A DNA stretch of 33,684 nucleotides from NCBI GenBank assembly GCA_024694145.1, contig JAILKD010000015.1:1-33684 (forward strand). Direction: 5' to 3'. The notes under the pieces are model-generated. The model ran no database searches, was not told where the DNA came from, and saw nothing but the letters and a program-made list of their open reading frames with translations. The first letter of the stretch is position 1; every line of letters starts with the position of its first letter. Positions 19,895 to 33,537 of the stretch are shown piece by piece. Position numbers and translations under genes: made by a program. The stretch is from a bacterium (GTDB lineage Bacteria; Bacillota_I; Bacilli_A; Acholeplasmatales; JAEDCM01).

Positions 19895-22615
19895 CTATTT
19901 TCTAATTAAATCAACAATTTTTCTGCATCTTGGACATAATTCGCCTTCATCAATTGAAGGAACAATTTGCCAACATCTTGAACAAGTAAATCCTGTTGCT
20001 GGAGCCACTTCAATTTTAACTTCATTAGCTACATCTTTTAACTCAAATTGACTTACAATACACATTTGTCCAATGTTAGAATCAAGTTTATCTAATAATT
20101 CTTTGATTTCTTTTGTTGGAGTAATTGTAAGTTTAGCATTAAATGATTTACCAATTACTTTATCATTTCTAGCATCTTCTAGTGCTTTTAAGATGTCATT
20201 TCTAAATTCCATGAATTTATCAAAATTATTCTTAAGTTCATCATAAGCACTATAATCTTTAGCTTCAGGCATATTTTCTAAGTATGCATCAGCAAGTTTT
20301 TCAAGTGGTAATTGATCATAAGCTTCAGTAGCTGTATGAGGAATAATTGGAGTAAGTAGGCTAATTAATGTTTTTGCTGTATGATATAGTACAGTTTGTA
20401 CACCACGTCTAGCTTTTGAATCAGTCTTTTCGATATATAATATATCTTTAGTGAAGTCTAAGTAGAATGGTGATAGAAGTGTTGCTATATAAGCATTAAC
20501 TAATCTATATACTTCATTAAATTCATAATTTTCATATGCTGTTGTTACATCTTTAACTAAATCATTTAATTTAATCATCATGTATTTATCAACATTACAT
20601 AAATCATTAAAATCAACTAATTTGTCTAAATCAGAAATATTAGCAAGTAAGAATTTAAATGTGTTTCTAATCTTACGATATACTTCTGAAACTTGTTTAA
20701 TGATATCATCACTAATTCTTTGGTCAGCTGTATATTCGCAACTAGCTACCCACATACGTAATATATCTGCTCCATATTGATTGACAACTTTTTGTGGATC
20801 AATAGTATTTCCTAGTGATTTAGACATTTTTCTACCCATACCATCAAGAGTAAATCCATGAGATAAAACGGCTTTATATGGTGCTTTTCCTGTAGTAGCA
20901 ACACCAACAATTAAGCTACTGTTAAACCAACCTCTATATTGGTCAGATCCTTCTAAATATAAATCTGCAGGGTATGGAAGATTATAATGTTTTAATACTG
21001 CTTGGCTACTTGAACCAGAATCAAACCAAACATCCATAATGTCTGTTTCTTTAGTAAATTTACCATTAGGTGAATGAATGTTTGTATATCCTTCAGGAAG
21101 TAATTCCTTAGCACCTTTCATAAACCAAATATCAGAACCATATTGTTCAAATAAATCAGCAATATGATCAAATACTTTCTTATCAACTACTGCTTCACCA
21201 TCTTCACAGTAGAAAATTGGAATAGGTACACCCCAAACTCTTTGTCTTGAAATACACCAATCTTTTCTATCTTTAATCATATTAGATATTCTAAGTTCTC
21301 CCCACTTTGGAATCCAATTAGCATTTTTGATTTCTTTAAGTAGAGTCTCTTTTAATTTATCAATTGAAGCAAACCATTGGCTTGTTGCTCTAAAGATAAC
21401 TGGCTTTTTAGTACGCCAATCATGAGGATAGCTATGTGTAATAGGCTTTAATTTAAGAAGTGAACCACAAGCTTTTAAATCTTCAATGATTACATCTTCA
21501 CTTGCATCATAGAATAAGCCTTCATATTTACCAGCTTCTTTTGTTTGATAACCTTTATCATTTACACAAACTAAAATATCTAGTCCATATTCTTTTCCTG
21601 CGATAAAGTCTTCTTCACCATAACCTGGAGCGATATGTACAAATCCAGAACCATCTGTTGTTGTTACATAATCAGCATTAATAGTTGGACTAACTCTATC
21701 AAATAATGGGTGCTTATATTTTAAATTAAGCAAATCTTTACCATATTTTCTATCTAAAACTTTAACATCTTCAAGTTCAAGTTCATCTGTTAATGATTTT
21801 AATAATTCTTCAGCACAAATCATCTTACCCTTATTTGAATCAAATAATACATATTCAATTAGTGGTCCAGCACAAACTGCAAGGTTACCTGGAAGAGTCC
21901 AAGGTGTTGTTGTCCATACTAAGAAGCTTGCATCTTTATATAAACCTTCTCCATTAACGATAGGGAATTTGAAATATATTGATTTAGATGTAATATCTTG
22001 GTATTCAATTTCAGCTTCAGCAAGTGCTGATTCACTAGATGGTGACCAATAAACTGGCTTTAATCCTTTAAAGATAAGGCCATCTAAAGCCATTTTTTCA
22101 AATACTCTGATTTGTTCAGCTTCAAAATAATGTTGTAATGTAATATATGGATCATCAAAGTTTCCAAGTACACCTAAACGCTTAAAGTTTTCTTTTTGCT
22201 TAGCAACTTGGTTATAAGCATATTCTTCACATTTTTTTCTAAATTCAGCAGTAGATATTTCTTTTCTATTTACTCCTGATTTAGTAATAGCAACTTCAAT
22301 TGGAAGTCCATGTGTATCCCATCCTGGTACATATGGAGTATAGAAGCCTTTCATAGTTTTATATCTTAAAACGAAATCTTTTAAAATTTTGTTTAAAGCA
22401 TGTCCAATATGAATGTTTCCATTTGCATATGGAGGTCCATCATGTAAAACGAAGAATGGATGTCCTTCATTTTTCTTTAAAACTTCTTTGTATAAATCCA
22501 TATCATACCATTTCTTTTGAAATAATGGTTCTCTCACGCCTAAATTTCCACGCATTTCAAATGCTGTTTTAGGCATAGCTAATGTGTCTTTGTAATCAAT
22601 AGCCATTTTAATCAC
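19895..22615 (-). CDS. ileS: isoleucyl-tRNA synthetase
   Basis: HIGHALNKILKD, KMSKSLGNTI, C-terminal CSRCWQIVPS...CPRC zinc site. Confidence 0.98.
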   Translation of the reverse strand: MIKMAIDYKDTLAMPKTAFEMRGNLGVREPLFQKKWYDMDLYKEVLKKNEGHPFFVLHDGPPYANGNIHIGHALNKILKDFVLRYKTMKGFYTPYVPGWDTHGLPIEVAITKSGVNRKEISTAEFRKKCEEYAYNQVAKQKENFKRLGVLGNFDDPYITLQHYFEAEQIRVFEKMALDGLIFKGLKPVYWSPSSESALAEAEIEYQDITSKSIYFKFPIVNGEGLYKDASFLVWTTTPWTLPGNLAVCAGPLIEYVLFDSNKGKMICAEELLKSLTDELELEDVKVLDRKYGKDLLNLKYKHPLFDRVSPTINADYVTTTDGSGFVHIAPGYGEEDFIAGKEYGLDILVCVNDKGYQTKEAGKYEGLFYDASEDVIIEDLKACGSLLKLKPITHSYPHDWRTKKPVIFRATSQWFASIDKLKETLLKEIKNANWIPKWGELRISNMIKDRKDWCISRQRVWGVPIPIFYCEDGEAVVDKKVFDHIADLFEQYGSDIWFMKGAKELLPEGYTNIHSPNGKFTKETDIMDVWFDSGSSSQAVLKHYNLPYPADLYLEGSDQYRGWFNSSLIVGVATTGKAPYKAVLSHGFTLDGMGRKMSKSLGNTIDPQKVVNQYGADILRMWVASCEYTADQRISDDIIKQVSEVYRKIRNTFKFLLANISDLDKLVDFNDLCNVDKYMMIKLNDLVKDVTTAYENYEFNEVYRLVNAYIATLLSPFYLDFTKDILYIEKTDSKARRGVQTVLYHTAKTLISLLTPIIPHTATEAYDQLPLEKLADAYLENMPEAKDYSAYDELKNNFDKFMEFRNDILKALEDARNDKVIGKSFNAKLTITPTKEIKELLDKLDSNIGQMCIVSQFELKDVANEVKIEVAPATGFTCSRCWQIVPSIDEGELCPRCRKIVDLIRK

Positions 22616-22621
22616 TCCTTT

Positions 22622-22850
22622 TAATAAAATAAAAAACGTCCTATCTAAGGACGCTAATAACGTGGTACCACCTTAGTTCTAGAATAAATCTAGCACTCAA
22701 ATCCCTTAACGCGGAAAACGTCCTATATTACTATAATTCACATAGGCATTCAAAGATGATATTCATATAATTAAGTGATGCTTTATTTCCACCAACAAAA
22801 GCTCTCTATAATGTTAATTACATAAACGTGTTCTTTTCATCAATTTTATA
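22622..22850 (-). ncRNA. T-box leader of ileS
   Basis: minus strand AAGGTGGTACCACG T-box (22661-22674), terminator CGTCCTTAGATAGGACG-TTTTTT, plausible ATC (Ile) specifier in GAATATCATC. Confidence 0.92.
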
Positions 22851-32116: not shown

Positions 32117-32395
32117 ATGAAGTATGAAGATTACATGAATGAATATGTTGAATTGGTTAAAAGATTTACCAAAACTCAAGACGAATATAATAAGCTCATG
32201 ACTGAACGGGTAAATAGAAATTGGAAATCCATTAAGCTTCAAGCATTCATCAATGAAATTAAAGCTACCGATGCACTAAATTTAGAATTTAACGATAAAC
32301 TTTTCAATTTAACAATAATCAACATAAAAGTATATAAAGATAGCCACCTCAAATTTAATTTCAAAGATGGCTCAATAATTGATATCGAACTCTAG
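32117..32395 (+). pseudogene. C-terminal fragment of a large serine recombinase
   Basis: coiled-coil region then FNDKLFNLTIINIKVYKDSHLKFNFKDGSIIDIEL, matching the C-terminal pattern of large serine recombinases; catalytic and zinc-ribbon parts absent. Confidence 0.65.
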
Positions 32396-32416
32396 TTAGT
32401 TTAGCTAGAGTTTTTT
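32388..32416 (+). terminator. intrinsic terminator after recombinase fragment
   Basis: AACTCTAG/CTAGAGTT stem followed by T-run on plus strand. Confidence 0.75.
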
Positions 32417-32924
32417 ACTTCATTTCTTTTTCAAATTCAAACATTCCTTCAAAATTATCATCAATAAAATCTTCTGGCATGTTTGGATCAGGATGATATT
32501 TATTTCAAAATTCAATAATATGGAATTTCAATCTATTAACATAAAAATGAATATTTCTAACATCAAAATATGGAGTACAAGTAATCCATTTTTTTGTTTC
32601 AGGATATAAAGATTCTATTTCTTTCCATATTGCTTGACCTATTTCTTTTGATTGTACTCCTACTTTAACAAATAAGAAATCTAAATGATTGAATTGAGTA
32701 TCTGGATTAATATTAACAATAGCACCTCCAAGAATAGAGTCATCATCATCTATCATTTCGTAAGCAAGTCCATTAGGATTATTTAAACAATCGTCAATAT
32801 CTTTTTCAAATAGAACTTGCTCTTCTTTTTGCTTAGTATATGATTCAAATCCATATTGAAATGCTTCTTGCATAAGCTTTTTAAATTCAATTACATCTTC
32901 TTTTCTTAATTTGATTAATTTCAT
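32415..32924 (-). CDS. GNAT-family N-acetyltransferase interrupted by in-frame TGA at 32505-32507
   Basis: ORF 32505..32924 ends ...FYVNRLKFHIIEF*; same frame continues NKYHPDPNMPEDFIDDNFEGMFEFEKEMK to TAA at 32415. Confidence 0.75.
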
Positions 32925-32940
32925 ATTTACCTCCTCAAAT

Positions 32941-33036
32941 AAAAAAGCTCGAAATAATGGTATTAACCAAATATTTCGAGCTCACTCGACACCTAATCAA
33001 CTATCGTGCTACGGCACTAGTTCTCCGGTGACCATT
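32941..33036 (-). ncRNA. structured leader RNA with terminator/antiterminator-like architecture upstream of GNAT gene (unassigned)
   Basis: terminator GCTCGAAATA/TATTTCGAGC + T6; mutually exclusive hairpin TCGAG-TGAG-CTCGA; upstream domain CACC/GGTG, AACTA/TAGTT, GTGC-CGTA-GCAC. Confidence 0.5.
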
Positions 33037-33047
33037 TTATAAAATTA

Positions 33048-33401
33048 TTAATTATGATGATGTTCTCCACTATGTGAACATGAATGCATCGCATTTGGAT
33101 TTCCAACTAGGCTACCATCTTTAAATTCCTTAATTACATCTTTAACATCTCCAAATGCTCCTGGAATCAATTTTAATCCAGCTGATTCTACTGCTTCAAC
33201 ACCATGAGAACCAATTCCACCACATATTAATGTGGATACACCAAGTGATTTTAAATATGGTGCTAGATCATGGTGAGAATATCCACCATTATCTATAATC
33301 TTTTCTTCACCAGTTTCTTCATGAAATAAATAAAAATACTCAGTTCTTCCAAAATGTTGGAATACAGAATTTGTTTCTTTATCATAAGTAATTGCTATCA
33401 T
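33048..33401 (-). CDS. dinitrogenase iron-molybdenum cofactor (NifX/NifB C-terminal-like) family protein
   Basis: MIAITYDKETNSVFQHFGRTEYFYLF, LGVSTLICGGIGSHGVEAVESAGLKLIPGAFGDVKDVIKEF, His/Cys-rich tail. Confidence 0.85.
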   Translation of the reverse strand: MIAITYDKETNSVFQHFGRTEYFYLFHEETGEEKIIDNGGYSHHDLAPYLKSLGVSTLICGGIGSHGVEAVESAGLKLIPGAFGDVKDVIKEFKDGSLVGNPNAMHSCSHSGEHHHN

Positions 33402-33537
33402 ATTATCTTCCCTCCCAATGAAATTACGTTTATATTATATCATAAAAACAACTATATTACTATTTTAATAGTAAAAATATCTGTTACGTGGGGTATTTAT
33501 AAAAATTTATAGTTCTTAAATAGTTCGTCTATAAGCT

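Follow-up and report, generated by a model that had tools for sequence, protein, structure and literature searches.

A transcription-terminating leader RNA upstream of a GNAT gene, a likely Gd4v-type member of the guanidine-IV/Gd4v riboswitch superfamily

Positions 32941–33036 of the window, read on the minus strand, carry a real and conserved riboswitch-type attenuator (the window is the whole 33,684-nt stretch of DNA analysed, positions 1–33,684 of contig JAILKD010000015.1, assembly GCA_024694145.1). The RNA is likely an ON riboswitch that acts through transcription termination and belongs to the guanidine-IV/Gd4v superfamily, where Gd4v is the most likely type; the acetyltransferase gene behind it is probably transcribed only when a guanidine-related small molecule is present. 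An earlier note on this DNA had described a ligand-responsive transcription attenuator or protein-responsive leader of no recognizable class. The first of these readings draws good support from covariation, from homologues preceding varied genes and from the promoter–leader–gene order found elsewhere, while nothing points to a protein-responsive leader. The RNA need not remain unassigned, however, as its architecture, gene context and ON-switch layout fit the published superfamily; we hold with good confidence that it is a new example of a published ligand-less riboswitch family, not a new class.

Structure and covariation of the leader

The elements of the region are as follows.

32941–33036, minus strand: whole riboswitch-type leader (aptamer plus terminator), defined by covariance models, folding and covariation
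33027–33030, minus strand: P1 5' strand CACC, partner of GGUG at 32990–32993, paired in 39 of 39 aligned sequences (partly by construction, see below)
32990–32993, minus strand: P1 3' strand GGUG, from the 39-sequence alignment
33023–33026, minus strand: internal loop, 5' side GGAG, near-invariant in the 39-sequence alignment
32994–32998, minus strand: internal loop, 3' side GAUUA (GAUAA in most relatives), conserved in the alignment
32999–33022, minus strand: hairpin 1, consisting of the P1b and P1a stems, from sequence and covariation
33022–33018 with 33003–32999, minus strand: P1b of hairpin 1, AACUA with UAGUU
33017–33006, minus strand: P1a of hairpin 1, GUGC-CGUA-GCAC, with the bulge GA at 33005–33004
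33010–33013, minus strand: loop 1, CGUA
32976–32989, minus strand: P2 hairpin UCGAG-UGAG-CUCGA, from covariation
32981–32984, minus strand: loop 2, UGAG, possible kissing partner of loop 1
32947–32981, minus strand: intrinsic terminator stem-loop GCUCGAAAUA...UAUUUCGAGC, from sequence and folding
32941–32946, minus strand: terminator U-run, U6, from sequence
32930–32935, minus strand: GNAT ribosome-binding site AGGAGG, from sequence
32505–32924, minus strand: GNAT acetyltransferase ORF (PF00583), 139 aa, ATG at 32924
33048–33401, minus strand: NifX/NafY-like gene (PF02579), directly upstream of the leader

The CACC/GGUG and AACUA/UAGUU pairings and the GUGC-CGUA-GCAC hairpin with its GA bulge, all described in the earlier note, were each found in their places on the minus strand. 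Folding of the 117-nt region gave z = −4.95, with none of 200 shuffles equally good, and the terminator by itself gave z = −7.89. The aptamer part by itself reached z = −1.64, with 14 of 200 shuffles as good, so that the aptamer is not proven by single-sequence energy; its proof comes from comparative sequence evidence, namely the pairs that are kept and the changes that occur on both sides. Across 39 sequences the stems covary strongly, as the attenuator reading had called for. P1, P1a and P2 keep 98.9% of their pair cells, against 28–36% in a control with slid partners, and two-sided changes were observed in 126 cells against 36 ± 9 in shuffles; P1a, P1b and the P2 stem had been left free by the retrieval pattern. 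The P1b strands also vary in step in the alignment rows compared, which were all but the last few, and the P2 hairpin is present in 39 of 39. The third pair of P1 changes from C-G to U-A in 31 relatives. The invariance of P1 is partly by construction, since a pattern fixing it as CAUC/GAUG served to retrieve about 24 of the 39.

Loop 1 (CNNA) and loop 2 (UGNG) could form four pairs: C-G in 39 of 39, A-U in 38 and C/U-G in 37, loop 2 being invariant partly because the sequence filter demanded xGNG there. The middle pair is G-C, C-G or U-A in 24 sequences and a mismatch in the other 15, the window among them. A kissing contact between the two loops is thus plausible from the aligned sequences. 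The pairing of UGGU near the 5' end with ACCA in the terminator loop (33034–33031 with 32961–32958), also proposed in the earlier note, is real and invariant in four close relatives; among the more distant homologues inspected, a single one by reading shows it again (L055, as AGGU/ACCU). A three-way junction closed by the longer AAUGGU/ACCAUU stem was rejected as a general feature, being exact in close relatives and mostly absent elsewhere. A different three-way junction arises in L042, L049, L072, L106, L201 and L205, where an extra GGGG...CCGCC hairpin lies inside hairpin 1; several of these members precede GNAT genes and others MATE genes.

Gene context and the link to GNAT

With covariance models built from the leader, the RNA was also detected ahead of genes for GNAT, MATE-efflux and cytidylate-kinase-like proteins in Bacilli, Clostridia and Negativicutes. 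Model R1, searched against the order, found copies before GNAT (L042, L049) and MATE (L043–L047) genes; model R2 added copies in the class and others in the class to which an Anaerovibrio genome belongs, and the matches of both models 5' of GNAT and MATE genes span many genera. Scanning genome contigs with a pattern yielded at least 119 stretches, some of them chance matches inside genes, and located the same RNA in many Clostridia. The downstream genes that were scanned encode GNAT, MATE or cytidylate-kinase-like proteins, the last directly behind the motif in L081, L084, L100, L120 and L187 (PF13189 shown for L081); to our knowledge, this kinase-like family has no role in guanidine or amine metabolism. 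GNAT relatives on Ruminococcus, Selenomonas and Treponema plasmids carry no such leader detectable by R2 or R3. About 10 of the 39 aligned homologues have a promoter immediately before them that matches the consensus at 10–11 of 12 bases, which identifies the RNA as a 5' leader.

In the window itself the leader lies 12 nt behind the stop codon of the NifX-like gene; the strongest promoter match runs into the 3' end of that gene, and the number of matches in the stretch is near chance. For these reasons the leader is probably cotranscribed with the NifX-like gene, and not expressed from a promoter of its own. This arrangement, with no convincing promoter for the leader, is what would be expected if the element were merely the 3' terminator or 3' UTR of the NifX-like gene and regulated nothing, a possibility raised in the earlier note, and the good conservation of the leader where GNAT is broken fits it as well. 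Such a role is nevertheless very improbable: distant homologues need no NifX-like gene upstream and precede genes of the GNAT, MATE and kinase families, often with a promoter immediately before them, and both hairpin 1 and P2 covary.

Close relatives bear on the same question. The genome has one copy of the 117-nt leader. Three genomes from a different family of the order also carry it, at 89–94% identity, and in each the leader sits between the NifX-like gene and GNAT or what remains of GNAT. At 90–97% in a further comparison it is better conserved than its neighbors, the NifX-like gene being 84–88% and GNAT about 84–85% identical (except for a 53-nt remnant at 98%). One of these genomes (G080) encodes an intact GNAT of 169 aa. 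The window has a premature TGA at 32507–32505 where G080 has TGG, and past this codon the homology runs on in the same frame as far as about 32415; by this comparison the window GNAT is probably a pseudogene. Reading TGA as tryptophan was rejected, as TGA ends other genes of the window and tryptophan is written TGG. In G090 only the first 53 nt of GNAT align, while in G061 the gene has an internal deletion and stops. From the G061 leader the GG of CGGAG, invariant in the others, is missing, and the NifX-like gene of that genome is intact, which argues against a 3' UTR of the latter and ties the RNA to GNAT instead. The joint decay of leader and GNAT amounts to a natural experiment.

The NifX–leader–GNAT block (32320–33489, about 1.2 kb) is 84–87% identical to the other-family genomes. 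The large gene at 19895–22615 is only 72–73% identical to the same genomes, against 89% within the genus of the window; by this disparity the block has probably moved horizontally. Upstream of this 906-aa ORF lies an ordinary T-box leader (RF00230, 110.9 bits; 22644–22849, minus strand).

Mutually exclusive folds and the proposed switch

The overlap of UCGAG-UGAG-CUCGA with the 5' arm of a terminator just before the GNAT ribosome-binding site, noted earlier, is borne out by the sequence: the 3' strand of P2 is the terminator 5' arm, with 32976–32981 common to both, so P2 and the terminator are mutually exclusive. In energy modelling the aptamer with P2 came to −18.0 kcal/mol, or −21.5 kcal/mol once the additional AAUGGU/ACCAUU stem was included, and hairpin 1 with the terminator reached −30.7 kcal/mol (minimum −34.7). 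Because the terminator fold outcompetes the aptamer-with-P2 fold, OFF is the default state of the leader in the model, and the ligand and kissing contact would therefore have to act cotranscriptionally, before the terminator is complete. In guanidine-IV the ligand acts during transcription, ahead of terminator completion (PMC11611296), and by analogy we infer the same for the window RNA.

We propose a model whereby, with no ligand, the CUCGA strand of P2 is pulled into the terminator and transcription ends at the U-run; in this OFF state the upstream NifX-like transcript would end there too. The ligand, which is probably guanidine-like or an amine, would stabilize the GGAG/GAUUA internal loop of hairpin 1 as well as the kissing contact between loop 1 (CGUA) and loop 2 (UGAG). 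P2 would then be retained, the terminator blocked and GNAT transcribed. The ON direction of this switch is carried over from the published family.

The choice between P2 and the terminator could in principle be made by a ribosome on a short frame, as in leader-peptide or other attenuators, and the frame AUG GUC ACC GGA GAA CUA GUG CCG UAG (MVTGELVP*) does start at 33035. This frame is not conserved, as L041 breaks it after three codons and L042 and L049 have no start codon for it, nor is a Shine-Dalgarno sequence visible before it; the peptide was rejected as a candidate, and attenuation of this kind is hardly credible.

Class assignment and comparison with guanidine-IV and Gd4v

The guanidine-IV riboswitch is the GGAM-1 or mepA motif (Lenkeit et al. 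2020, PMC7736828; PMC11611296), and Gd4v is a guanidine-IV variant, an orphan riboswitch candidate whose ligand is unknown (Lenkeit et al. 2022, PMC9788692). Both types are described as having two hairpins joined by a pseudoknot, with a Rho-independent terminator, and as accompanying MATE and GNAT genes (PMC7736828, PMC9788692); Gd4v is further described by a D1 position that is never G, a D2 hairpin to which P2 may correspond and a gene context in which transaminases are commonest, followed by GNAT and MATE (PMC9788692). The window RNA has two hairpins with conserved bases and a possible loop–loop pseudoknot, and its 3' hairpin serves as a Rho-independent terminator ahead of a coding gene, as it does, by reading, in most relatives. 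The database scan suggested in the earlier note gave no match for the leader in Rfam 15 at gathering or relaxed thresholds. No member tested matches any Rfam 15 family, which accounts for the class match missed earlier and means that such a scan could not have settled the class; for the same reason genome annotation will keep missing members.

Membership of the superfamily is better supported than the assignment to Gd4v as against guanidine-IV, an inference of moderate strength that turns on a few positions. Positions D1–D4 were placed by published residue numbers alone: alignment columns 84, 85 and 90 were taken as G66, U67 and G72 of L. lactis and G71, U72 and G77 of C. botulinum, and Cloacibacillus G57 and U58 as the first two of these columns. 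Mapped in this way, the three columns read G, U and U/C in the window group, a Gd4v-like set, and column 90, the presumed D1, is U in 24 sequences, C in 15 and G in none of the 39. Attempts to fix D1 with sugE-linked guanidine-IV examples from Bacilli and plasmids yielded none that was usable; a Paraclostridium sugE leader matches neither R2 nor R3 and by eye resembles a guanidine-I riboswitch.

Should the leader be a true guanidine-IV riboswitch, guanidine, which that class binds at roughly 60–250 µM, would be the ligand, and the GNAT would belong to a guanidine or canavanine response. The shared architecture, the GNAT and MATE genes that also accompany guanidine-IV, and the acetylation of canavanine by a guanidine-IV-linked GNAT agree with this; the non-G residue at the mapped D1 and the ever-present P2 hairpin, both reported Gd4v features, speak against it, as does the lack of a sugE/SMR gene behind any member seen, and we regard it as decidedly unlikely. 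Doubtful, too, is the reading that the GNAT/MATE-linked CNNA–UGNG RNAs, the window included, form a separate specificity group that is neither guanidine-IV nor transaminase-linked Gd4v; a ligand of their own, for instance an agmatine- or canavanine-derived compound, is equally doubtful as part of that reading.

A second set of RNAs, found with model R3 (L071, L112, L128, L210–L218 and others), precedes MATE genes in Bacilli and Clostridia. It shares with the window group the CGGAGG/GGAUAAG core and P1 (CAUC/GAUG), and it builds its terminator with the GGAUAAG strand, which part of the window group does too. It differs in loop 2, which is mostly UGRRA instead of UGNG; R3 does not find the window, and R3-group members score weakly with R2. 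Their loops 1 and 2 seem to covary (UUC/GAA, UCC/GGA, CUC/GAG). In nine further MATE-linked leaders (L098, L111, L117, L147, L150, L154, L157, L167 and L176) P2 is replaced by a second, nested CGGAG–hairpin–GGAUAAG module; CGUA stands in both hairpin loops, recalling the paired ACG loops of guanidine-II, and these leaders are possibly a double-module variant.

The Gd4v-type assignment matters because the ligand of Gd4v has resisted identification. GNAT-linked members from small gut Bacilli whose genes are intact (L055, L056, G080) are added here, together with a covariation-tested secondary structure and a concrete loop–loop hypothesis for a likely Gd4v-type RNA; the new members, the structure and the co-decay with GNAT help in choosing constructs and ligands. 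With guanidine-IV the leader has in common the general layout, the ON-switch terminator and the proposed kissing loops; the two differ at the mapped D1, in P2 and in the sugE genes. From Gd4v it departs in that the homologues found include no transaminase-linked member and that the terminator uses P2's own 3' strand. The features that unite it with Gd4v, judged from the published description, are the two hairpins, the possible pseudoknot, the Rho-independent terminator, the hairpin at the terminator and a putative D1 other than G (by residue-number mapping), in a shared setting of downstream GNAT and MATE genes in gut Firmicutes.
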